A DNA stretch of 64,000 bases from the NCBI RefSeq assembly GCF_024166365.1, contig NC_064838.1:75036001-75100000 (forward strand). Direction: 5' to 3'. The translations under genes and the position numbers were made by a program. A model generated the notes under the pieces. It was not told the origin of the DNA. It worked only from the letters and a program-made list of their open reading frames with translations, and made no database searches. Shown piece after piece: positions 1,625-57,970 of the stretch. This DNA comes from Elephas maximus indicus (Eukaryota > Chordata > Mammalia > Proboscidea > Elephantidae). Position 1 is the stretch's first letter, and each line of letters opens with the position of its first letter.

Positions 1625-2160
1625 GTGTGTGAGGGTAGACCTTTGTGACTGAGCAGTAGAATTCTTACCTTCCATGTGGGAGATACTGGTTTGAATCCTG
1701 GCCAACGCATCTCATGCACGGCCACCACTCATTTATCAGTGAAGGTTTGTATATTGCTACTATGCTAAACGGAAACCCTGGTGGAGTAGTGGTTAAGTGC
1801 TATGACTGCTAACCAAGAGGTCAGCAGTTTGAATCCTCCAGGCCCTCCTTGGAAACTCTGTGGGACAGTTCTACTCTGTTCCGTAGGGTCACTATGAGTC
1901 GGGATCCACTCGGCAGCAGTGGATTTTGGTTTACTATGCTAAACAGATTTCAGCGGAAAAAAAAAAAAATTTTTTTTTTTTTTTTTTTCAGATTAAGATG
2001 GACTAGGAAGAAAGAGCTGATGATCTCCTTCTGAAAATCAGCCAGTGAAGCCCTATGGATCACAATGAGTCAATCTCTAAGCCCTTATGGGGATGGTGCA
2101 GGACCAGGCAGCATCCCATCCATTGTGCGTAGGGACTTACTGAATGCCAGCTCACAATAA
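1625..2160 (+). mobile_element. Long tRNA-derived afrotherian SINE with RTE-like tail, interrupted
   Basis: The head has a tRNA-like layout: an A-box-like segment, then a 'gtttgaatcctgg' B-box-like segment near 1690. The tail (about 2015-2155) is a 'gatgatctccttctgaaaatc' type segment ending in a CAATAACAA-like repeat, as in RTE LINE ends. The element is split by an AfroSINE (1771-1935) and by an A13/T19 run (1957-1988). The copy in unit B (10530-10880) is uninterrupted, which confirms the layout. Confidence 0.75.
1771..1935 (+). mobile_element. AfroSINE, unit A-specific, with target-site duplication
   Basis: Typical AfroSINE order: 'ccctggtggagtagtggtta', 'gctaaccaagaggtcagcag', 'ccttggaaactctgtggg', 'tcactatgagtcgg', and a GGTTT-type tail. 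It is flanked by a perfect 13-bp direct repeat, TACTATGCTAAAC. Unit B has one copy of the related target near 10675 and no insert, so the element landed after the tandem duplication. Confidence 0.93.
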
Positions 2161-2429
2161 CAAATTGAATATTTGTCACAGTACGATGGCATCCATTTTA
2201 GGGAAAACATATAAATTCAAGGTGGAAGGAAAACTGCACAATATTTTGCCCAAACCCAAGGGCCAAGATAATTTTTTTTTTTTTAATCCAAATCTCGACG
2301 ATTCCAATTCTGGGATGTATCAACTCAATGGAAGAAAATTGTTAAGATTTTGGAAAAAGAACATTGAAAACTCAATGGACACAAATTGAGCTTAGCAAAC
2401 ATGACATGAGTAGGTAAATGTTTTTAATG

Positions 2430-4838
2430 CTGTTCTTTGTTGTTAGGTGCCTTCAAGCTGATTGTGACTCACAGAGATCCTATGTACAACAGAACAAAAC
2501 ACTGCCCACTGCTGCACCATCCTCACAATCACTTTTATGCTTGAGCCCATTGTTGCAGCCACTGTGTCAGTCCATCTCATTGAGGCTCTTCCTCTTTTTC
2601 ACTGACACTCTACTCTACCAAACATGATGTCTTTCTCCAGGGACTGATTCCTTCTGATAACTTGTCGAAAGTATGTGAGATGAAGTCTCACCATCCTTGC
2701 TTTCTAAGGAGCGTTCTGGTTGTGCTGCTTTCAAGACAAGAGTTCTTCATTCTTCTGGCAGTCAATGGTATAGTCAATATCTTTTGCCAACACCATAATT
2801 CAAAGTTGTCAAATCTTCTTTGGTCTTCCTTATGCTTTATCCAGCTTTCACATGTATATGAGGTCACTGAAAACACCATGGCTTGGATCAGATACACCTT
2901 AGTCCTCAAAGTGACACCTTTGCTTTTTAACACTTTAAAGAGGTCTTTTGCAGCACATTTGTCTAATGAAATGTGTCTTGATTTCTTGACTGCTGCTTCC
3001 ATGGGTGTTGATTGTGTATGCAAGTAAAATGAAATCCTTGACAACTTCAATCTTTACTCCATTTATCATGATATTGCATATTGGTTCAGTTGTGAGGATT
3101 TTTGTTTTCCTGATAACAATGTGTAATTCATACTGAAGGCTGAGTTCTTGATCTTCATCAGTAAGTGCTTCAAGTCCTCTTCACTTCCAGCAAGCAAGGT
3201 TATGTCATCTGCATAAGACAGGTTGTTAATGAGTCTTCCTCCAATCCTGATGCCCCATTCTTCTTCATATAGCTCAGCTTCTAGGATTATCTCTCAGCAC
3301 TCACACTGAATTTAAGTATGGTCAAAGCACACAACCCTGACCACACACCCTTCCTGACTTCGAACCACACATGTTCCCCTCTTCTGTTGCAACAACGGCC
3401 TCTTGCTTTATGTAGTTTCCCCATAAGCACAATTAATTGTTCTGGAATTCCAATTCTTTGTAATGTTATCCATAGTATGTTTTGATCCACACAGCCAAAT
3501 GCCTTTGTATAGTCAATAAAACACAGGTAAGCCACTTTCTGGTATTCTCAGCTTTCAGCCAGAATCCATTTGACATAAGTGGTGATATTCCTCGTTCCAT
3601 GTCCTCTTCTGAATCTGGCTTGAATTTCTGGCAGTTTCCTGTCCATGTACTGCTGCAACCACTTCCGAATGATCTTCAGAAAAATATAACTTGCATGTGA
3701 GTTGTTCAGTAGTTAAGAGCTAAGACTACTAACCAAAAGGTCGGCAGTTGGAATCCACCAGCTGCTCCTTGAAAACGCCATGGAACAGTTCTGCTCTGTG
3801 CTATAGGATCCCTATGAGTCAGATTTGGCTTGACAGCAATGAGTTTTGATGACACTAATGATTTTTTTCCATAATTTCTGCATTTGGTTGAATCACCTTC
3901 CTTTGTAATAGGCGTAAATATAAATTTCTTCCAGTTTGTTAGCCAGGTAGCTGACTGCCAAATTTCTTGGCATAGAAGAGTGAGCACTTTCAGGGATGCA
4001 TATGTTTGTCAAGCATCTCAAATGGTATTCCCTCATTCCTGGAGCCTTATTTTTCTCATGTTTTCAATGCAGCTTGAACTTGTTCTTGATCGTATGCTAC
4101 CTCCTAAAATGTTTGAAAGTCGAAAAGCTCTTTTTGGTACAGTGACTCTGTGTATTCTTCCATCTCCTTTTGATGCTTCCTGTGTCGTTCAGTATTTTGC
4201 CCATAGAATCCTTCAATATTGCAATTCAACATTGTAACTCAAGAATTGAAATTTTCTTCAGTTCTTTCAGCTTGAGAAATGCAGAGTGTGTTCTTTCCTT
4301 TCAGTTTTCTAACTCCAGGTCTTTGCACATGCATTATAATACTTTAATTTGTCTTTTTTTGTTCCCCTTTGAAGTCATCTTTTCAACTCTTTTACTTCAT
4401 AATTTCTCTTATTCCTTTTAACTACTCTATGTTCAAGAGCAAGTTTCAGAGTCTCTTCTGACATCCATTTTGGTCTTTTCTTCCTTTCCTATCTTTTTAA
4501 TGACCTTTTACTTTCTTCATATATGATATCCTTCCACAATTCATCTGGTCTTTGGTCATTAGTGTTCAATGCATCAAATCTATTCTTGAGATGGTCTCTA
4601 AATTCAGGTGGGATATACTCAAATCGCACTCCGGCTCTCGTGGAATTTTTCTAATTTTCGGAAACTTCAGCCTGAACTTGCGTATGAGCTCTTGATGATT
4701 TCTTCCGCAGCCAACACCTGGCCTTTTTCTGACTGATGATATTGAGCTTTTCCATTGTCTCTTTCCACAAATGTAGTCGATTTGATTTCTGTGTATTCCA
4801 TCTAGCAAGTCCAAATGTAAAATCACTGTTGATGGTTT
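2430..4838 (-). mobile_element. RTE-class LINE, 5'-truncated, decayed (unit A)
   Basis: Minus-strand fragments match RTE/BovB-like LINE proteins in order: end of the endonuclease domain ('HRNQIDYICGKRQW', 4566-4826), RT motif A ('YLCFIDYTKAFGCVDQ', 3287-3535), a YADD box at about 3203-3214, and the C-terminal 'FELWCWQKIL' block (2688-3050). The frame is broken repeatedly. The 3' end (left side) has the family's TTGTTAGGTGCC-type sequence. An AfroSINE sits inside it. The same element at the same place in unit B shows that it predates the duplication. Confidence 0.9.
3700..3852 (+). mobile_element. AfroSINE nested in the RTE LINE (unit A)
   Basis: 'cagtagttaagagctaaga', 'aaaaggtcggcagttgg', 'ccctatgagtcagatttgg' and a GAGTTTTGATG tail. 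It is also present in unit B (12436-12580), so it inserted before the duplication. Confidence 0.9.
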
Positions 4839-5214
4839 TTTTGTTTTTGTTTTTTTAAGGTGCTCGAAAAAAAGAAGTAGTCTTGCAAAATTCTATCATA
4901 TGTATGAAGGTCTCCATGGGTAAAGTTTATTCAAGAGAATCTATCTCTACTGTCTTCTATCGGGTTGGCTGCTTATGGGTGATGGGACACATGGTAATAT
5001 CAATAGTCTGAGATCATGACAACAATTTCACACTTCTGTTGTTCACAAACATGTGTTGTGTCCTAGGCAATGTTTATGGGATATCATGTCAATGGATCAC
5101 ATAGTCTGCAAGCCCTCAAACAGTGTAGTTGGAGGCACTGTGGGGAAAAACGCACTATCTATATCTAAAGTATTATCATTTCAATCTATATCTGAAGAAT
5201 TTAAAATTTCCAAT

Positions 5215-5635
5215 AAGTATTTATAATTAAGATTACAGACAAAATTAAGGTTGCTAGTCATCTAACTTTAAAATAAGGAGATTATACTGCATTACCCGGT
5301 TGAGCTCAGTATAACAACCAGTATCCATAAAGGTGGAAGAGTGAGACAAAAGAAAAAGAAGGAGATATGGTAATGGAGGAATGGTCAAAGATACGCAACG
5401 TGGCTGGCTTTGAAGATTTAGGAAGGGGTCATGATCTAGGGAAAGTGGGTGACCTCTAGGTTCTGGAAAAGCTGAGAGCCTCCAAAAGAAACACAACCAT
5501 ACTGTCACTTTCATTTTAGCCCAGTGAGACCTATGTCAGATTGTCAACCTAGAGAACTTAAGGTCATAAATTTGGGGTGTTTTAAGGACTACACTTGTGG
5601 TAATTTGTTATGGCAGCAGTAGAAAACCAATACAT
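5215..5635 (+). mobile_element. MaLR/MLT1-type LTR fossil (unit A)
   Basis: The 3' half of the element ends in the MaLR-type pattern 'ttttagcccagtgagacc', 'ggggtgttttaagg', 'ttgtggtaatttgttatggc', 'aaaaccaataca'. It is a solitary, old and broken LTR with no internal genes nearby. The matching copy in unit B is at about 13950-14370. Family assignment is from memory of the consensus, so subfamily is not given. Confidence 0.5.
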
Positions 5636-5639
5636 CTTG

Positions 5640-6612
5640 AAGCATATACTTTAAAAAAACATCTCCAGATGTCCTTGCAAAAGCTTCTAATTGCAAATCA
5701 TTGGTGGGTGCCCTCATATTAAAAATCTTTCAATCTCCAAACTAATATTCTGTCCTCCTATGCTAGCACCTTCAAGACTGACACCTATAGTAAAGTGTTT
5801 CCCCATTTCTCACCATACATTCGCTAGACAATATAATTACCTCATGTATATCATTTCTAAAAGAGTAAGGGTTGTATTTTACTGCTTTGATTTTTCTAAG
5901 ACTTGTCCCTGGTTAGTCGCTTGAAAGTAATAAGGGATAAACGAGGGGGTTCTGGAAGAGAACAATTCTCGTTGCACAACAACTGCTTCAGATGACATAA
6001 TGCCATGGGATCAAGGCAGGGAAGAGTTTTGTCCCCTTGCATCGGGGAGCCAACCCAGCGGGTCCAGATAATTTTGAGGCTCATGGTTCTCACTCTTCTG
6101 CACAAACATTTCCCTGTTTTAGCTTTCAGAGTCCCATTCTATCTCTAACAGGACAGTGGTTTCAACAAAGGAACCCTGTTGAGCTGTACCTTCAGTCTTC
6201 TTTGCAGTTCTGCCACTTTTATTATAAAATTCTGAGTCTGATCTAGAGCACAATTTCTGCTTGCAAGAGACTTGGTGACAGTGGCAGCAGTGGCTCTAAA
6301 CTGAGTACATGTCCAGGGGATATAATAGATGGAGTGTTTCTGGGTAGACTGCTACATGGATTCAATATACACTCCCTTTTTATCTTTTCCATTTCTTGAA
6401 ATAGAAGACATCAGCAAAACTCTTCCAACTGGAATCTACTAATATGAAAAACTTTCAATAGTAGAATCAAACTGTAGCTTCTCTAATCAATGGTAAACTA
6501 CTTGAGATAGATCCACCTTGAAATTCCAAGAATCCTAAATAAAATAAGTGATGTAAATATGTCAGTATAGTTTGTCTTAGAGTCTACAACATTCCATGTC
6601 CACACAGAAAAA
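5640..6612. other. Gene-free interval inside unit A
   Basis: Unique-looking AT-rich sequence with a diverged counterpart in unit B (about 14370-15362). No gene, tRNA or recognisable repeat is visible. Confidence 0.6.
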
Positions 6613-7422
6613 TAGATGTTCATTTTATCAAGCTAAAGAAATGCCAAAGTTCTTGGTACAATAGAATTGATACAAATTTGAAAAATTTAATACAATTTAT
6701 TATGAAAATAGAATTTAGATGTCTCAAATGAACAAAAACACTCATGTCTAATTTTCTGTACAGATAAAAATACAAAAAAGAAATGAAATTGAAGTTAGGT
6801 TCTAAATAAATGATCATGTAAATAGAGACTGTGCTGTCAGATGGGTAGTGACAAAACTTGGTATCTATCCCCACTGCAGAAACATACATTTCCTATAAAC
6901 ATTCAGTTCTCTCTACTCAAGTTATTCTCTTTTCTAATTTGTATTGAAAACTCACTAAAATTTTCTATCCGTGACATACATATTTCTGTTTCAAAGCCCC
7001 AAATTCCTTCTCTGGATTATCACATTCAGTTTTGAAAACAAAAGCTACCAGACTGGGAATTTAAGAATCTAGAGGCTAACTGTAATCACAATAAAAAAAC
7101 AAACAAACAAACAAATCCATTGTCATCGATTTGATTCCAACTCATGGCAACCCCCATGTGGTTTTTTGGCTGTAATCTTAACAAAGTAGAATCACCAGGC
7201 CCTTTCCTCTGTAGCAATGCGAAGTGGATTCAAATTGCCAGCCTTTGCTTAGGAGTCAAGCAATACCACAAATCAACATGAAGAAGGACAAGGAAAACAC
7301 CAGGCAAAAATTACAAGTGGTTATAGGCATCCAATGGAGGCAGAGAGACCACTGTGAAAAATCTAAGGTAATGTGCTTTACATACCTGTTTGTTCCTGGT
7401 GTGGTCTCTTCCTCAATATGAA
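6613..7422. repeat. 810-bp block identical to 15363-16172
   Basis: Every line compared is identical to unit B at a constant offset of 8750, including a (CAAA)n stretch and an AfroSINE. The first mismatches outside are 6612 versus 15362 and 7423 versus 16173, after which the copies diverge quickly. The block ends about 170 bp short of the OR pseudogene's stop codon. Confidence 0.95.
7112..7262 (-). mobile_element. AfroSINE inside the identical block (unit A)
   Basis: Reverse-orientation AfroSINE: 'ccattgtcatcgatttgatt', 'ccaactcatggcaaccc', 'ggctgtaatcttaacaaag', 'caccaggccctttcct', 'ggattcaaattgccagcc'. It belongs to the longer subtype with the 'ggctgtaatctt' segment. Confidence 0.85.
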
Positions 7423-7591
7423 ATTGAGTCAATACTAACCAGTGTATGTGTTCAGATTGCCTATTTTCCTAAAGAAACTAGCTCTCATTCCACAAGATAG
7501 GATTCTATTAAATCCAAAATTAGAAGATACTATTTTCTGTTAAATTATTCTAGGTCGAGTCAAGATATTAACAAGGATTTGAAACTTCCAT

Positions 7592-8525
7592 TCATCTTTG
7601 GTCTTCTGAGATCAGCTTCTTGCTCCATAGCTTCCTCATGCCATTTTTCACCTCAGCATTTCTCAGCGTATAAATCAGAGGGTTAGTCAACGGTGTTCCA
7701 GTTGTATAAAACACAGTTTTTTTTTATCATCTTATCCATGGGGAAGGTGGTTGCGGGACATGTATATATAAACATACAAGGACCAAAGAACAAGATGACT
7801 ACGGTGATATGGGAGATGCAGGTGGAAAGGGCTTTTTTCCACCCTTCAGCGCTGTGGTTTCTCAGAGAATGCAAGATGATAACATAGGAGAGCATCAGCA
7901 TGACAAAACTCACTGTGCAAACAGCCCCACCATTGGATACTAGTAGTAAGTTGATCACAAAGGTGTCTGTACAGGCAAGTTTTAACAAGGGTTGCAAGTC
8001 ACAGAAATAGTGATCAGTCACATTGGGACCAGAGAAATGTAAGCTCAAGGTCAGAAAAATCTGAATTGAAGAATGTACACAAGTCTCTACCCAGGCTATA
8101 GCTACCAACACACTGTAGACCCGCCGGCTCATGATGCTCATGTAGTGCAGGGGTTTACAGATGGCCACATAGCGGTCAACAGCCATCAGGATAAGGATCA
8201 AGACCTCCAGGCAGCCAAAGAAATAGGCTGAAAAGACTTGGATCGTGCACTCACTAAAAGAGATGGTATTCTTCAGACAGGCATCCACAATCATTCCAGG
8301 GGCTATGGAAGTAGAGAAGCAGGTGTCAGATAAGAAGTAGAAAAGGAAGAAGTACATTGGACTCTCAGGTACCCGGCTGGTCTTGATGGTGATGATAATC
8401 AAAAAATTACCCAACAAGGTCCCTAAGTAGAAAAGCAAGAAAAAGACAAACACTATTTTCTTTCTAAAAGGATCTTGTGTCAACCCAAGCAGAATGAACT
8501 CAGTCACATTATTATTCAGCAGCAT
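7592..8525 (-). pseudogene. OR4C16: OR4C16-like olfactory receptor pseudogene, copy A
   Basis: The start used is the ATG at 8525-8523 ('[19 protein letters not shown]'), which matches the OR4C16 N-terminus. An in-frame ATG at 8552 would add nine residues. Recognisable family features are GN in TM1, [21 protein letters not shown] and KALSTCISH. A frameshift at the A9 run (7717-7725 on the plus strand, a net gain of about 7 bp relative to the expected codon) replaces TM7 with a short wrong tail. Beyond it the old frame continues through NPLIYTLRN to a stop at 7592-7594. Other damage: the extracellular-loop Cys of FCGPN is Ser, TPRMI has become APGMI, and one codon each is lost in TM2 and in the DALLKxNT segment. 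The gene cannot make a normal seven-helix odorant receptor. Confidence 0.95.
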
Positions 8526-8568
8526 GATTTCGTGAATGAGGAGCAGGAACAAGTGTGAAGCGGTTTAT

Positions 8569-8585
8569 CTGAAAAGAAAAATACA
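8569..8585 (-). promoter_or_regulatory. Splice acceptor upstream of OR copy A
   Basis: Read on the minus strand, a pyrimidine-rich run (ATTTTTCTTTTCAG) ends in AG 43 nt before the chosen ATG. OR genes normally splice a 5' UTR exon to the single coding exon at such a site. The equivalent AG is AA in copy B. Confidence 0.6.
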
Positions 8586-9426
8586 GGAATTAATTTATGT
8601 TCTATGCAACAGTGTGAAATATTTTAAACAAATTAATTTGTGGTGCTAAGTGATGTTATGAGCTGTTTTGAGCAAAAATAAATATTCCTCATTAGAGACA
8701 TTCTAATTGTTTCTTAATGAGTCACCTCACCTCTTTGCCCCTCAGTTCTTAATGACCTCTTCATAGGGTCATTTTAAACCTCAAGTAAGCTTAAAAAAAC
8801 AATTTTTTTAAGCTTATGAAAGGTATTTTCATAAATCACTCTTAAAATGCAAGTTCTTGTTAATTTTAACATGTTTCTGTTCTCATTGATTCAATTTATG
8901 TGATAAATAAAAATTCTGGATATATGGCTGCAATGTATTATTTACTTAATTTTTTTTCATATTCAGTAGAACTTGGGGCCCGTATTTTTGCATGGTAGGT
9001 TTATCAGGCAGAATTTAGGATATACCTGTCTCTCTTTTTGAATTTAATGTTATAAAGTCACACACTATTCCCATCCACATAATTCATGTTTCATTTCTAC
9101 ATATATTTATGTATTATATATTAGTGATGCACACTTATATGAAAGTAAATTACTATTATGATCACTGTACGGACATCTATTTCTTCATCAGTAAATGAAG
9201 AAGTATAGTTTTCATGAATTCTCCCAGTCACTAAAAATTAATTTTATTAATCACATGATTTATTTAATCAATTATTAATTAAGCAAAATTATCAGTTAAT
9301 ATTTCCATCATTCAATTATAATTTTTATTCTGCTTATTGCTTATAATATTCAACCATTTGACATTGTTTTCAAATAGTTATAGCTTTGTAGCATTGCTAG
9401 TCTATCTGAAGTAGAGTAAAAAGCAT

Positions 9427-10529: not shown

Positions 10530-10880
10530 CCTGGTGGGTGTGAGGGTAAACATTTGTGATTGAGTAGTAAAACTCTTGCCTTCCATGTGGGAGTTACTAG
10601 TTTGATTCCTGGCCAGTGCATCTCACGCACAGCCACGGCCCATTTATCAGCAGAGGCTTGTATATTGCTATGATGCCAAACAGATTTCAGTGAATCATTT
10701 AGATTAACATAGACTAGGAAGAAAGAGCTAATGACCTGATTCTGCAAATCAGCCAGTGAAACCTTAAGGATCACAATGATTCAATCTGTAAGCCAACATG
10801 GAGATGGCAGAGGACCAGGCAGCATCCCGTCTATTGAGTGTGGGGACTTACTGGACAGCAGCCCATAACAACAAAATGAA
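10530..10880 (+). mobile_element. Long tRNA-derived afrotherian SINE, uninterrupted (unit B)
   Basis: Same element as 1625-2160: tRNA-like head ('tgattgagtagtaaaactct', 'gtttgattcctggccag'), middle 'aacagatttcagtg', tail 'gacctgattctgcaaatcag' to 'cagcccataacaaca'. It preserves the empty site for the unit A AfroSINE. Confidence 0.78.
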
Positions 10881-12390
10881 TATTTGTCACAGTAGAATAG
10901 CATCCATTTTAGGGAAAATATATAAATTCAAGGTGGAAGGAAAATTTCAAAATATTTTTCTTAAACCCAAGGGCTAAGGTAATTAAAAAAAAAAATCTGA
11001 ATCTGTTAGATTCCAATTCTGAGATGTATCAACTCATTAGAAGAAAACTGTTAAGAGTTTGGAAAAAGAATATTGAAAACTCAACGTGAACAAATCGATA
11101 TTAGAAAACATGACATGACTAGGTACTTTTTTTTTTTTTTTGACGGTTGTTGTTATTTGTTGTTAGGTGCCTTCAAGCTTGGTCTGATTCACAGAGCTTC
11201 TATGCGCAACAGAACAAAACACTGCAGGCTCCTGCTCCACCTTCACAATCATTTTCTTGCTTAAGCCCGTTGTTGTAGCCATTGTGGCAGTCCATCTCAG
11301 TAAGGTCTTCCGCTTTTTCGCTGACACTCTACCAAACATGCTGTCCTTCTCCAGCGACTGGTCCTTTCTGACAACATGTCCAAAGTATGTGCGATGAAAT
11401 CTCATCATCCTTCATTTCTAAGGAGCATTCTGGGTGTGCTGCTTTCAAGACAGATTTTTTTCATTCTCCTGTCAATCCATGATATATTCAATATTCTCTG
11501 CCAACACCATAGTTCAAAGGCATCAAATCTTCTTTGGTCTTCCTTATGCTTTATCCAGCTTTCACATGCATATGAGGCCACTGAAAACTCCATGGCTTAG
11601 TCCTCAAAGTGGCATCTTTGCTTTTTAACACCTTAAAGAGGTTTTTTGCAGCACATTTGTCCAATGCAGTGTGTGTTGATTTCTTGACTGCTGCTTCCAT
11701 GGGTGTCGATTGTGTATGCAAGTAAAATGAAATCCTTGACAACTTCAATCTTTTCTCCATTTATCCCATGATACTGCTTATTGCTCCAGTTGTGAGGTTT
11801 TTTGATTTCCTTATGTTGATGTATATTTCATACTGAAGGCTGTAGTCTGTGGTCTTCATCAGTAAGTGCTTCAAGTACTCTTCACTTTCAGCAATCAAGG
11901 TTGTGTCATCTGCATAAGGCAGATTGTTAACGAGTCTTTCTCCAATTCTGATGTCCCATTCTTCTTCACAGAGTCCAGGTTCTAGGATTATTTGCTCAGC
12001 ATTCAGACTGAATATGGTTAAAGCATATAACACTGACCACGTGCCTTTCTTGACTTCAGACCACACAGTATTCTGTACCAACAACTGCCTCTTGCTCTAT
12101 GTTCAGTTTCCGTGTAAGCACAGTTAAGTGTTCTGGAATTCCGATTCTTTTAAATGTTATCAATAATTTGTTATCATCCACACAGTTGAAAGCCTTTGTA
12201 TAGTCAATAGAACACAGGTAAACCACTTTCTGGTAATCTCAGCTTTCAGCCAGGATCCATTTGACATAAGCAATCATGTTCCTCATCCAATGCCCTCTTC
12301 TGAATCTGACTTGAATTTCTGGCAGTTCCCTATAGTGTACTGCTGCAACCACTGCTGAATGATTTCAGCAAAATTTAACTTGTGTATGAA

Positions 12391-12430
12391 CGCTATGAGT
12401 CGGAATCGACTAGACGGCAGTGGATTTGGT
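12391..12430 (+). mobile_element. 5'-truncated AfroSINE tail, unit B-specific
   Basis: Only the last ~40 bp of an AfroSINE ('cgctatgagtcggaatcgac' plus 'cggcagtggatttggt') is present, flanked by direct repeats TATGAA (12385-12390 and 12431-12436). Unit A lacks it. It is much closer to the consensus than the older SINE beside it, so it is younger. Confidence 0.8.
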
Positions 12431-12435
12431 TATGA

Positions 12436-12580
12436 ATGGTTCAGTGGTTAAGAGCTAAGGCTGCTAGCCAAAATGTCCGCAGTTTGAATCCACCAGACGC
12501 TTCTTGAAAACCCCATGGGACAGGTCTACTCTGTGCTATAGGGTCCCTATAAATCAGATTTGACCTGACATCAATGAGTT
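12436..12580 (+). mobile_element. AfroSINE nested in the RTE LINE (unit B)
   Basis: Counterpart of 3700-3852, with the same order of tRNA-like head and 'tccctataaatcagatttg' tail. It predates the duplication. Confidence 0.88.
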
Positions 12581-13949
12581 TTGATAATACAAATGATATT
12601 TTTCCATATTTTCTGCATTTGGTTGAATCACCTTCCTTTGTAATAGGCATAAACATGAATCTCTTCCAGTCTGTTTGCCAGGGAGCTGTCTTCCAAATTT
12701 CTTGGCATAGAAGAGTGAGCACTTTCAGGGCTGCATATGTTTGTCGAACATCTCCAATGGTATTCCCTCATTCCTGGAGCCTTATTTTTCTCCAGTGTTT
12801 TCAGTGCACTTCAGTGAACATCTTCTTGATCATATGTTACCTCCTGAAATCTTTGAAAGTCGAACAACTCTTTTTGGTACAGTGACTCTGTATATTCTTT
12901 CATCTCCTTTTGATGCTTCCTGTGTCGTTCAGTATTTTGCCCATACAATCCTTAGTTATTGCAACTTGAGAACTGATTTTTTTGTTCAGTTCTTTCAGTT
13001 TGAGAAATTCAGAGTATGCTCTTCCCTTTCAGTTTTCTAACTTCAGATCTTTGCATGCATTATAATACTTTAGTTTGTCTTCTTCTGCTCTCCTTTGAAA
13101 TCTTCTTTTCAACTCTTGTACTTCATAATTTCTTTTAATCCCTTTTACTATTCTACATTCAAGAGCTAGTTTCAGAGTCTCTTTTGACATGCATTTTGGT
13201 CTCTTTTTTCTTTCCTATCTTTTTAATGACCCCTTGCTTTCTGTATTTATAATGTCCTTCATGTCATTCCAAAGACCAGTTCATCTGGTCTTTGGTCATT
13301 AGTGTTCAATGCTTCAAATCTATTCTTGAGATGGTCTCTTATTTCAGGTGGCACATACTCAAATTCGTACTTTGGCTCTCATGCAATTGTTCTAATTTTT
13401 GTCAGCTTCAACTTGATCTTGCACATGAGCACTTGATAGTTTGTTCTGCAACCAACCCCTGGCCTTGTTCTGACTGATGATATTTAGCTTTTCCACAGTG
13501 TCTTTCCACAGATGCAATTGATTTGATTCCTGTGTATTCCATCTAGCAAGTCCACATATAAAATTGCCATTTATGTTGTTGAAAAAAGGTTTTTGCAATA
13601 AAGAAGTTGTTGGTCTTGCAAAATTCTATTACATATCCAAAGTCTCCATGGGTGGAGCCTATTCAATAGCATCTATCTATCATTACTCTCTTCTACCAGG
13701 TTGGCTGCTTATGGGTGATGGGATACTTGGTAATATCAATAGTCTGAGATCATGACAACACTTTCATACTTCTGTTCCTCACTAATGTATATTGTGTCCC
13801 AGGCAATGTTTATGGGGTATCATGTCAATGGATCACATAGTCTGCAAGCCCTCAAACAGTGGAGGAACTGTGGAGAAAGAAGTCACGATCTATATTTAAA
13901 GTATTTATCTTTTCAATCTACAGCCAAAGAATTTATAATTTCCAAGAAG

Positions 13950-14370
13950 TATTTATAATTAAGGTTACAGACAAAATTAAGGTGGCTAATCATCTAACTT
14001 TAAAATAGGGAGATTACCCTGTATTATCCAGTTGAGCTCAGTATAGTCACAAGTATCCTTACAGGTGGAAAACAGAGGCAGAAGAGAATGAGGGAGATAT
14101 GGTAATGGAAGAATGGTCAAAGGTATGCAATGTGGCTGACTTTGAAGATTTAGGAAGGGGTCATGATGCAGGGAAATTGAGTGGCCTCTAGATTCTGGAA
14201 AACTTGGGGCTTCCAAAAGAGATGCAACCATGCTGACACCTTCATTTTAGCCCAGTGAGACCTATGTCAGATTGTCAACTTACAGAACTTAAGATAATAT
14301 ATTTGGGGTGTTTTAAGCACTACATTTGTGGCAATTTGTTACAGCAGCTGTAGAAAACCAATACAATAAG
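13950..14370 (+). mobile_element. MaLR/MLT1-type LTR fossil (unit B)
   Basis: Counterpart of 5215-5635 with the same 3' LTR pattern ('ttttagcccagtgagacc', 'ggggtgttttaagc', 'ttgtggcaatttgttaca'). Solitary, old and broken. Confidence 0.5.
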
Positions 14371-15362
14371 TACATACCTTAAACTATACTTTAAAAAGCC
14401 AGCTCAGTATGTCCTTGCCAAAACATCAAATTGCAAATCGTTGGCGGGTTCCTTCATGTTAAAAAAATTTCAGTCTCCAGATTTATAATCTGTGCTCCTA
14501 TGCTAACATATTCAAGATTAACTCCCATAGTAAAGTGTTTCCCCATTTCTCACCATACATATTACCTAGGCACTGTAATTACCTCATGTATGTCAATTCT
14601 AAAAGAGTAACAGTTGTATTTTACTGCTTTAACTTTCCTGAGACTTGCTCCTGGTTAGTCTTTTGGAAGTAATAAGGAATACAGGAGGAGGTTTTGGAAA
14701 AGAACAATTATCATTGCACAACAACTGCTTCAGATGATGTAATCACATAGGACTAAGGCACAGAAGACTTCTCTTCCCTCCCAAGGGGGAGCCAACCCAG
14801 AGGATTGAGATAATTTGGGGGCTCACGGTTCTCACACTTCTGGACAAACATTTCCCTGTTTTAGCTCTGAGAGTCCCATTCTATCTCTATCAGGACACTG
14901 GTTTCAACAAAGGAAGTCTGTTGAGGCTGCACCTTCAGTCTTCTTTGCAGTTCTGCCACTTTTTTTTATAAAATTCTGACTCTGATCTAGAGCACAATTC
15001 TTTTTCAGCAGTAGACTTGGTGAGAGTGGCAGCAGGGGCTCTATACTGAGTACATGTCCAGGAGATAGATTAGATGGTGTGTTTCTGAGTAGACAACTAC
15101 ACTGGATCCAATACACACTCCTTTTTGTCTTTTCCTTTCCTTGAAATAGGAGAAGACATCAGCAAAACTCTTCCAACTGGAATCTAATACTATGAAATAC
15201 TTTCAATAGCAGAATCAAACGGTAGCTTCCCTAATCAATGATAAACTGCTTGGGATCAATTTCACCTTGAAATTCATAGAATATATATTTTTAAAAAATG
15301 ATGTATGCATGCCACTGTATTTCCTTTTAGAATCTACATCTTTCCATATCCACACAGAAAAG

Positions 15363-16172
15363 TAGATGTTCATTTTATCAAGCTAAAGAAATGCCAAAGT
15401 TCTTGGTACAATAGAATTGATACAAATTTGAAAAATTTAATACAATTTATTATGAAAATAGAATTTAGATGTCTCAAATGAACAAAAACACTCATGTCTA
15501 ATTTTCTGTACAGATAAAAATACAAAAAAGAAATGAAATTGAAGTTAGGTTCTAAATAAATGATCATGTAAATAGAGACTGTGCTGTCAGATGGGTAGTG
15601 ACAAAACTTGGTATCTATCCCCACTGCAGAAACATACATTTCCTATAAACATTCAGTTCTCTCTACTCAAGTTATTCTCTTTTCTAATTTGTATTGAAAA
15701 CTCACTAAAATTTTCTATCCGTGACATACATATTTCTGTTTCAAAGCCCCAAATTCCTTCTCTGGATTATCACATTCAGTTTTGAAAACAAAAGCTACCA
15801 GACTGGGAATTTAAGAATCTAGAGGCTAACTGTAATCACAATAAAAAAACAAACAAACAAACAAATCCATTGTCATCGATTTGATTCCAACTCATGGCAA
15901 CCCCCATGTGGTTTTTTGGCTGTAATCTTAACAAAGTAGAATCACCAGGCCCTTTCCTCTGTAGCAATGCGAAGTGGATTCAAATTGCCAGCCTTTGCTT
16001 AGGAGTCAAGCAATACCACAAATCAACATGAAGAAGGACAAGGAAAACACCAGGCAAAAATTACAAGTGGTTATAGGCATCCAATGGAGGCAGAGAGACC
16101 ACTGTGAAAAATCTAAGGTAATGTGCTTTACATACCTGTTTGTTCCTGGTGTGGTCTCTTCCTCAATATGAA
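15363..16172. repeat. 810-bp block identical to 6613-7422
   Basis: Partner of the unit A block, with no indel or substitution seen in 810 bp. The flanking sequence returns at once to the array's background divergence. Confidence 0.95.
15862..16012 (-). mobile_element. AfroSINE inside the identical block (unit B)
   Basis: Identical to 7112-7262. It belongs to the block shared by both units. Confidence 0.85.
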
Positions 16173-16334
16173 GTTAACACTAGCCAGTGTATGTATTCAT
16201 ATTGTCTATTTTCCTAAAGATAGGAAAGTATTAAATCCAAAATAAAAATATACTATTTCCTGTTAAATTCTTCTAGGCTGATTCAAGATATTAGGAAGGA
16301 TTTGTAACTTCCATTCATCTTTGGTCATCTGAGA

Positions 16335-17245
16335 TTAGTTTCTGCTCCATAGCTTCCTCATGGCGTTTTTCACCTCAGCATTTCTCAGTGTGTAAATCAG
16401 AGGGTTAACCAAAGGTCTTCCAATTGTATAAAACTCAACTATTATTTTATCCATGGGGAAGGTGGTTGCAGGCCATGTATATGTAAATATACAAGGACCG
16501 AAGAACAAGATGACTACGATGATATGGGAGATGCAGGTGGAAAGGGATTTTTCCTCCCTTCAGCACTGTGGTTTCTCAGAGAATGCAAGATGATAACATA
16601 GGAGAACATCAGCATTACAAAACTCACTGCAGAAATGGCCCCACTATTGGACACCAATAGTAGGTTGTTCACATAGGTGTCTGCACATGCAAGTTTCAAC
16701 AAGGGTTGCAAGTCACATAAATAGTGATCAATCACATTGGGACCACAGAAAGGTAAACTCAAGGTCAGAAAAATCTGAACTGAAGAATGCACACAGGCCC
16801 CTACCCAGGCTATAGCTACCAACACATTGTAGACTTTCCGGTTCATGATGCTCACATAGTGCAGAGGTTTACAGATGGCCATATAGCGGTCAACAGCCGT
16901 CAGGATAAGGATGAAAATCTCCAGGTAGCCAAAGAAATGGGCTGAAAAGACTTGGATCATACACTCGTTAAAAGAGATAGTGTTATCCTTCAGAAGGGCA
17001 TCCACTATCATTCTAGGGGTTATGGAGGTAGACAAGCAGGTGTCAGATAAGGATAAGTAGAGAAGGAAAAAGTACATTGAACTCTTAAGTGTCTGGCTGG
17101 TCTTGACGGTAATAATAACCAACAAGTTGTCCAACAATGACCCTAAGTAGAAAGGCAAGAAAAAGACAAACGCTATTTTCTTTTTAACAGGATCTTGTGT
17201 CAACCCAAGCAAAATGAACTCAGTCACATTATTATTCAGGAGCAT
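16335..17245 (-). pseudogene. OR4C16: OR4C16-like olfactory receptor pseudogene, copy B
   Basis: Start ATG at 17245-17243 ('[19 protein letters not shown]'). PMYFF-like 'SMYFF', [40 protein letters not shown] and LKLAC are present. The main lesion is a one-base loss in the T-run at 16548-16552 (plus strand; six T in copy A), which turns KKALSTC into a wrong tail after 'GRKNPF'. Beyond it the old frame is clean through [34 protein letters not shown] to a stop at 16335-16337. A second one-base loss just before that stop shortens the C-terminus. The TM1 motif is DN, not GN. The upstream splice acceptor is also lost. Its lesions differ from those of copy A, so the two copies died independently. 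Confidence 0.95.
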
Positions 17246-17340
17246 GATTTCATGAATGAGGAGAAGGAACAAGTGTGAAGTGGTTTATTTAAAAAAATAT
17301 ATATATGTATATAAATTAATTTATGGTGCTGTGCAATATT

Positions 17341-17515
17341 GCTGAAACACTGGTGGAGTAGTGGTTAAGTGCTACAGCTGCTAACCAAAGAGTCGGCAGT
17401 TGAATCCACCAAGGTGCTCCTTAGAAACTCTATGGGGCAGTTCTACTCTGTCACATAGGGTCACCATGAGTGGTAATCGACTGGACAGCACTGGGTGTTT
17501 TGTTTTTTTTTTTTG
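17341..17515 (+). mobile_element. AfroSINE, unit B-specific, upstream of OR copy B
   Basis: 'aaacactggtggagtagtgg', 'aaccaaagagtcggcag', 'tcaccatgagtggtaatcga' and a T-rich tail. Flanked by GCTGTGCAATATT / GCTATGCAATATT (12 of 13 identical). Unit A has no insert at the same place, so it inserted after the duplication. Confidence 0.92.
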
Positions 17516-42424: not shown

Positions 42425-43333
42425 ATGGGAGACCAAAACAATGTGACTGAATTCATTCTTTTGGGCCTTACGAAGAACCCACAGCTGCGGAAAATATTCC
42501 CTATTGTGTTTTTAATCATGTATGTGGCCACCGTATTGGGAACCTTACTCATTGTGGTAACTATGACTACAAGTCAGAGTTTGAGGTCACCTATGTATTT
42601 TTTCCTTACTTCCTTGTCCCTAATGGATACTGTCTATTCTTCTGTCATCACCCCCAGGATGATTGTGGATTCCTTCTCTGAGAGTACTACCATCTCCCTC
42701 AAAGGCTGCATGATTCAGCTTTTTGCAGGACATTTCTTTGGTGGGGTGTCAATCATCCTTCTCATTGTGATGGCCTATGACCGCTACATGGCCATCTGTA
42801 AGCCCCTGCATTATATGACCATCATGAGTCCTCGGGTTTGCCGCCTGCTGCTGGGAGGGACCTGGGTGGGAGGATTTTTGCATGCAATGATACAGCTCCT
42901 CTTCATGTACCAAATACCTTTCTGTGGTCCCAATGTCATTGATCACTTTATATGTGATTTGTTTCAATTGCTGACACTGGCCTGCATGGACACCCACATC
43001 CTGGGCCTTTTGGTCATTCTCAACAGTGGAGTGATGTGTGTGGCAATATTCCTTTTCCTGATTGCCTCCTATGCAGTCATCCTCTGCTCCCTGACATCGT
43101 GCAGGTCTGAAGGGTGGTACAAAGCTCTCTCCACTTGTGGTTCCCACCTCATGGTGGTCGTCTTGTTCTTTGTGCCATGCATTTTCTTGTATGTAAGACC
43201 TGTGACCACTTATCCCATAGACAAGGCAATGGCTGTGTTGGGGGCCATCATCACACTCATGTTGAATCCCTTGATCTATACTCTGAGGAATGTAGAGGTA
43301 AAAAATGCCATGAAGAAACTTTGGATGCAATGA
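42425..43333 (+). CDS. Olfactory receptor, OR4C family (OR4C12/46-like)
   Basis: 302 residues, single coding exon, usual OR length. Predicted odorant-binding GPCR of the olfactory neuron cilium membrane. Seen: N6-glycosylation site (NVT), PMYFF at 56-60, C95, [10 protein letters not shown] (116-125), C167/C177/C187 in loop 2, KALSTC (233-238), NPLIYTLRN (281-289). '[19 protein letters not shown]' and 'TTYPIDKA' resemble OR4C12/OR4C46. Odd points: the near-invariant TM1 asparagine is Thr40 (LGT in place of LGN, ACC for AAC), the usual Pro of PMLNP is Leu278, VFYT is VLGA, and GRxKALSTC is GWYKALSTC. The frame is open, but function may be relaxed. A candidate splice acceptor AG ends at 42398, 26 nt before the ATG. 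AATAAA lies at 43423-43428. Confidence 0.95.
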
Positions 43334-57014: not shown

Positions 57015-57929
57015 TCATAATTTGCTACACCATAACTTTTTCATGGCATTTTTCACTTCCGCATTCCTCAGTGTATAGATCAAAGGGTTGAGAAACGGTG
57101 TCCCAATTGTGTAAAACACAGCCACCATCTTGTCCACTGGAGATGCAGTTGGTGGGCGTGTGTACATGAACACACATGGACCAAAAAATATGACAACCAC
57201 AATGAAATTGGAGGTACAGGTAGAAAGAGCTTTTTGCCTTCCTTGTTCGCTGTGGTTTCTCAGAGAGTATAAAATGACAACATAGGATATAAGCAAGAGC
57301 ATGAAACTCACCATGCATATGGCCCCACTATTGGACACAAGTAGCAAATTTATCACATAAGTGTCCATGCAGGCAAGTTTCAACAAGGGCTGCAAGTCAC
57401 ACAAATAATGATCAATCACATTGGGGCCACAGAAAGGCAATTTCAAAGTCAACATAATCTGTACTGAAGAATGGATACAAGATGCCACCCAGGCTAGAAT
57501 CACCAGCGCGCCACAGACACGCCTGCTTATGATGGTTGTGTATCGCAGGGGCTTACAAATGGCCACATAGCGATCAAAAGCCATGAGGATGAGCACAAAT
57601 ACCTCCATACACGCAAAGAAATGGACTGCAAAGACCTGAGTCATGCACTCATGGTAGGAAATAGTCTTCTTCTGAGACAGAGCATCCACAATCAATCTGG
57701 GTGCCGTAGTTGTAGAAAAGCAGGCATCGGCAAAGGACAGGTAGAATAGGAAGAAGTACATGGGACTCCCAAGAGTATGACTTGTCTTAATAGTCACCAC
57801 AACGAGAAAATTCCCCAGCAGAGTCAAAAGGTAAAGAACCAAGAAGATTCCAAATATCACTTTCTGCTTTTCAGCATCCTGCGTCAACCCAAACAGAATG
57901 AATTCAGTCACACTGTTATTCATCACCAT
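57015..57929 (-). CDS. OR4C11: Olfactory receptor OR4C11-like, intact
   Basis: 304 residues, single coding exon. Predicted odorant-sensing GPCR of olfactory sensory neurons, coupling to Golf as OR family members do. Seen: N4 glycosylation site (NNS), GN in TM1 (39-40), PMYFF (56-60), TAPRLIVD, C95, MAFDRYVAICKPLRY (116-130), C167/C177/C187 in loop 2, KALSTC (233-238), [12 protein letters not shown] (278-289). 'TAPRLIVDALS', 'KPLRYTTI' and 'FYTIGTPFLNPLIY' match OR4C11 as I recall it; OR4C6 is a less likely alternative. The one notable change is TSNF where TSHI is usual. The start at 57929 aligns with the OR4C11 N-terminus; an in-frame ATG two codons on is less likely. All hallmark residues are kept, so it is probably functional. 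Confidence 0.95.
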   Translation of the reverse strand: MVMNNSVTEFILFGLTQDAEKQKVIFGIFLVLYLLTLLGNFLVVVTIKTSHTLGSPMYFFLFYLSFADACFSTTTAPRLIVDALSQKKTISYHECMTQVFAVHFFACMEVFVLILMAFDRYVAICKPLRYTTIISRRVCGALVILAWVASCIHSSVQIMLTLKLPFCGPNVIDHYLCDLQPLLKLACMDTYVINLLLVSNSGAICMVSFMLLLISYVVILYSLRNHSEQGRQKALSTCTSNFIVVVIFFGPCVFMYTRPPTASPVDKMVAVFYTIGTPFLNPLIYTLRNAEVKNAMKKLWCSKL

Positions 57930-57970
57930 GTTAGTAGCTGTAGGTGGGATGAAGTTGACAAAGGTTTAAT

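Follow-up and report, generated by a model that had tools for sequence, protein, structure and literature searches.

Two neighbouring units of a tandem olfactory receptor (OR) array, designated A and B, were found to share an 810-bp tract without a single difference in the window, the 64-kb stretch of DNA analysed here (C28:75036001-75100000, from an assembly of 3.40 Gb in 64 contigs). The best explanation is recent one-way interlocus (non-allelic) gene conversion from unit B into unit A, to which we give a probability of about 0.8. In such an event, unit A would have suffered a break or gap that was repaired with the neighbouring unit B, in the same orientation and 8.75 kb away, as the template; the 810-bp stretch on the 3' side of the OR pseudogene of A would thereby have been replaced, presumably in one step, by the sequence of B. 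The conversion should be recent, with neither substitution nor indel nor change in (CAAA)n length between the two copies since that time. The features concerned are listed in Table 1.

Table 1. Coordinates of the OR units and associated features (window positions, except for unit C)
Feature	Position	Strand	Basis
Converted tract in unit A, probable recipient	6613..7422		Identity with 15363-16172 and distance to C
Matching sequence in unit B, probable donor	15363..16172		Identity with 6613-7422
Unit A, homologous to unit B	1987..8619		Self-BLAST (identity 84.7%, with 54 gap openings)
Unit B, oriented as A and located about 8.7 kb downstream of it	10698..17347		Self-BLAST and global alignment
OR pseudogene of A	7592..8564	-	Three-frame translation; Pfam 7tm_4, E 2.2e-32, open part 7683-8564
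OR pseudogene of B	16315..17284	-	Frame broken; Pfam 7tm_4, E 7.2e-32, open part 16514-17284
SINE-like stretch with (CAAA)n, inside tract	7090..7262	- (presumed orientation)	Unit alignment
Interval matching the A-left/B-right junction of C	6757..6846		Changepoint of C against B
Unit C (L009; L009 with L029 spans C28:76511141-76531037)	C28:76521141-76531037, reversed	-	A-left/B-right chimera

The two copies of the tract agree at 810/810 positions with a fixed offset of 8750, and the first base beyond either end differs. The exact copy described in the initial annotation is thus real and maximal on both sides. By global alignment of the two units, no A/B difference was detected between 6613 and 7412, a region of eight consecutive 100-bp windows. 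In contrast, 26 of 100 positions differ in the 100-bp window on the left of the tract, and 9 of 73, plus 27 gap columns, in that on the right. The sliding A/B divergence therefore falls to zero exactly at the proposed edges. Identity of the tract is far above that of the rest of the units, where 828 of 5817 aligned sites (14.2%) are substituted and the longest identical run is 46 bp; the indels noted earlier in the flanks were observed, but the earlier estimate of about 10% divergence was somewhat too low. The tract stays in homologous register with the flanks on both sides. Gapped A/B alignments give a run of 809 instead of 810, because the indel at the right edge is placed at 7422. At the divergence rate outside the tract, the chance of a run of 810 is about 1e-54 per start. 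When 11 units were aligned, A and B agreed over an unbroken run of 246 polymorphic columns, whereas 10,000 shuffles gave no run longer than 57.

The unit family was surveyed for long identical runs by using 22 units (A, B and 20 other loci), all 231 pairs of which gave 276 BLAST alignments with a length of 1500 bp or more. The A/B alignment was by far the most extreme of the 276 (E about 1e-64; next 4e-8). A family-wide tendency to long identical runs was rejected, as no other run of this size was found, the next longest among the 256 alignments differing by at least 10% being 122 bp. Closer pairs, about 2-6% apart, gave identical runs of up to 352 bp with E of 0.0002 or more, and the low divergence of these pairs roughly explains such runs. 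Under a crude uniform-rate model, 33 of the 276 alignments, A/B included, pass E < 0.05/276; the other 32 depend on much shorter runs than A/B, and may represent minor ancient exchanges or rates that vary along the unit. The same model gave E of about 1e-8 to 1e-7 for identical runs of 90-122 bp in pairs 14-18% apart, such as L016/L027 and B/L019. In a pairwise shuffle test of 52 of the 55 pairs among 11 units (three close pairs excluded), the A/B value was 246 and the highest shuffled value 41; L009/L015 came next, with 28 against 27. The tract is the only one of such size in the survey, which fits a single rare event, and would also fit a single assembly fault.

Relatives of the tract were located on C28, C9 and C17 by a search of the whole assembly, in which 40 of 530 candidates were scored. 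Within this scored set, the two window copies were the sole matches of 100%, and the third-best match, 91%, was at C28:76524341-76525137 on the minus strand, followed by 88% and lower. For the left flank of A (40 of 46 candidates scored genome-wide), the best other match was unit C with 97%, followed by 84% and lower, and B reached 83%. This ranking is the reverse of that for the tract, for which B gave 100% and C gave 91% among the scored candidates. For the left flank of B and the right flank of A, the comparison covered the fetched loci.

Unit C resembles A on the left and B on the right. In the region 5613-6612, A and C are 3.3% apart (96.7% identical) and B and C 16.5% apart, while in the region 7423-8560 the A-C distance is 10.6% and the B-C distance 6.5%. 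By changepoint analysis of C against B, the junction was best placed at 6809, with a divergence of 16.0% to its left and 6.1% to its right and a gain in log-likelihood of 37.5. The B-like similarity of C, about 5% apart, extends at least to window position ~29,300. The C locus carries a single unit where the window carries two, an arrangement that would result from unequal crossing-over of an A-type with a B-type unit. Among the 12 best matches in the comparison of L030 with L009, no colinear counterpart was found at the C locus for the unit upstream of A (~-7346 to -320). Judging by the C locus, the number of units seems to differ between the duplicated arrays. On the left, A and C are about 3% apart, less than the roughly 5% between B and C on the right, and the history of C probably had more than one step.

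Phylogenetic trees were constructed for 11 of the 22 units. In the left-flank tree, A was grouped with C (support 0.999) and B stood apart. In the tree for the left part of the tract, A and B were identical, with weakly supported neighbours (0.727-0.751), and C stood apart. The tree for the right part again showed A and B as identical, with C beside them (1.000). In the right-flank tree, B was grouped with C (0.997) and A with L017 (0.924). Among these 11 units, the flanks thus keep the history of their own copy, without reciprocal exchange and without gain or loss of a unit. The grouping expected of gene conversion in the initial annotation, flanks by copy and tract A with B, holds within this genome through the paralog C. 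Together with the drop of divergence at the exact edges, the trees support the recent gene conversion proposed there, and the direction of transfer can now be added.

In the region 6613-6820, the sequence shared by A and B differs from C at 25 of 199 sites (12.6%), far more than the 3.3% of the adjacent A-C flank would give (P 1.4e-8); under the B-C rate of 16.5%, the probability of so few differences is 0.08. The original sequence of A is missing in this part and that of B is kept. The possibility that A was the donor of 6613-6820 was rejected, since about 3% divergence from C would then be predicted. Between 6842 and 7422, C and the shared sequence are 4.7% apart, closer to the B-C distance (6.5%) than to the A-C distance (10.6%) of the right flank, in consistency with the same direction. 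As the distance of the shared sequence to C is B-like and not A-like, B most likely overwrote A. For the right part of the tract we infer this direction, as C is no proxy for the pre-conversion sequence of A beyond ~6820. Within the tract, only 3 differences in 196 sites separate C from the shared sequence in 7013-7212, compared with about 5-8% on either side; this was noticed post hoc, and may be due to chance or to a small separate exchange.

An artefact of assembly or polishing, in which the sequence of B was pasted into A by gap filling or by mis-assigned reads, would also leave the two copies without any difference, down to the length of the (CAAA)n run, and the tract is the sole case of this size in the survey. 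A clean patch from B into A would even yield identical trees, and the corresponding caveat of the initial annotation stands. Against this explanation, however, N bases were absent from the window and from the 30 fetched loci (L029 and L030 included), and the tract edges carry neither a gap nor lost or doubled bases. The tract and flanks are in register, although a clean patch would look likewise. Long reads, if used for this assembly, should be easily assigned at 14% divergence. We consider such an artefact unlikely, and the assembly at this site is presumably correct.

Gene conversion between A and B should also be judged with respect to their divergence. According to a review, from which only these points are taken, interlocus conversion takes place mainly above 80% identity, and conversion tracts in hamster cells have a mean length of 287-296 bp (PMC3924818). 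The two units are about 86% identical. OR clusters are named among conversion hotspots in the portions of the literature consulted, in which exchange is commonest between tandem duplicates of high identity (PMC3790853, PMC4467073). As for human segmental duplications, conversion events average 6.26 kb and hotspots favour a median identity of 99.4%, as summarized in PMC10172114. In the cited sections of PMC7085117 and PMC9881173, MLH1, MSH2 and BLM of mouse cells suppress deletions between repeats 1-3% different; break-induced recombination between repeats 19% different, inhibited by BLM, has also been recorded for human cells in work cited there. The suppression at 1-3% (PMC7085117, PMC9881173) and the hotspots at 99.4% (PMC10172114), as far as these excerpts go, count against conversion at about 86% identity. 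The process itself is ordinary, and a recent perfect 810-bp tract at this identity is at the low end of expectation.

The same divergence is an argument for replication template switching between A and B, homology-poor or driven by microhomology, in place of conversion by homologous repair. A and B could be too diverged for efficient homologous pairing, to judge from the suppression described in parts of PMC7085117 and PMC9881173, and both edges of the tract adjoin strongly diverged sequence (26/100 on the left, an indel on the right). However, homologous register is kept at both ends without visible junctional insertion or deletion, as homologous pairing predicts, and template switching is regarded as very unlikely. 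The overwriting of both A and B by a third, unsampled unit would be conceivable in that the donor was identified only through C and more distant units. A third donor was rejected, since no third unit above 91% was detected in the whole-assembly tract search (40 of 530 candidates scored); in addition, the distance from C to the shared sequence in the right part is similar to the B-C distance beyond the tract on the right, and such a history is highly improbable.

The tract lies on the 3' side of the OR pseudogene of A. The frame of this pseudogene is broken towards its 3' end, and the stop codon at 7592-7594 (minus strand), in the shifted frame, is separated from the tract end by 169 bp; the tract indeed stops just short of the OR region, as had been noted. 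The lower end of the B pseudogene corresponds to the site matching the stop codon of A. Two open OR frames, both matching Pfam 7tm_4, were found near the pseudogenes, at 57015-57965 (minus strand, E 8.7e-49) and at 42425-43333 (plus strand, E 1.5e-37).

The initial annotation also placed a (CAAA)n stretch and a SINE inside the tract. Both are present, the latter as a SINE-like stretch, putatively the AfroSINE named there, with a presumed minus-strand orientation. In 9 of the 11 aligned units this stretch has 166-173 bases; L016 and L017 have about 40 fewer. From the similar length in the nine units, the insertion probably predates the divergence of the units; the SINE is then probably old and not the cause of the A/B identity. 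A BLAST of the stretch within the window gave, besides the tract copies, one partial match of 51 columns and another of 59.

Strong purifying selection on a regulatory element, already doubted in the initial annotation and favoured by the exact identity alone, is excluded because the identity is confined to A and B: five further representative units diverge from one another by 9.0-17.4% within the tract windows, as in the flank windows (7.2-17.6%), the shared sequence differs from C by up to 14.3%, and 5-11 gap events separate it from each of nine paralogs, C included, in a count where the right-edge indel is the sole A/B event.

The age of the gene conversion from B into A can be limited by the lack of changes. 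For 0 changes in 810 sites, the upper 95% bound is 3/810 or 0.37%, roughly one ninth of the divergence between A and C. A rate of 2.5e-8 per site per generation and a generation time of 25 years are used in the part of PMC12361634 cited here. If this rate applies to the animal, taken to be an elephant, the conversion would be younger than about 1.9 million years.

Gene conversion is well known in OR clusters; what is unusual here is a recent conversion at only about 86% identity. In the mammalian OR-cluster conversion of Sharon et al. (1999), as cited in the excerpts of PMC4467073 and PMC3790853, OR paralogs likewise exchange sequence; here they are neighbouring copies of the same orientation. 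Unlike that case, the tract described here lies 3' of two pseudogenes and contains no OR coding sequence, and the donor and recipient are about 14% apart. The donor/acceptor logic is common to that for human segmental duplications, in which, in the section of PMC10172114 considered here, a recipient tract is nearer to a paralog than to its own closest relative. In contrast to the values of 6.26 kb and 99.4% given there, the tract is only 0.81 kb long and the units are about 86% identical. Among the titles listed in literature searches for conversion or tandem clustering of olfactory receptor genes in elephants, none dealt with this locus.

The case represents a clean example of directional conversion at about 14% divergence, to which a chimeric third copy in the array bears witness. 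Tandem OR arrays accordingly seem able to exchange sequence long after they diverged, which affects the dating of such families and the building of their trees. If confirmed, the locus would provide a natural test of the divergence tolerated by mammalian germline repair.

Unequal crossing-over between tandem units yields hybrid units. Unit C looks like a hybrid of this kind between A and B, its locus holding a single unit in place of the two in the window. The event that formed C is, however, older, and changed the flank and the unit number, whereas the A/B tract leaves both flanks unchanged. As the junction of C falls inside the tract, two A/B recombinations touched the same stretch. The region around 6613-7422 might then be a local site of recombination between OR units about 14% diverged, where the recent B-to-A conversion followed an earlier crossover making C. 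The junction inside the tract is suggestive only as a hotspot sign, the chance of its landing there being about 12% (810 of ~6630 bp), and we hold this extension to be doubtful. If it were true, exchange between diverged copies would escape mismatch-dependent rejection at particular places of the array.

Units of the family were also found in opposite orientations in two stretches of C28, at 74.96-75.36 Mb on the plus strand and at 76.24-76.55 Mb on the minus strand. Further members are located on C9 at 104.5, 111.9-112.1 and 115.9 Mb, and on C17 at 26.47-26.52 Mb.
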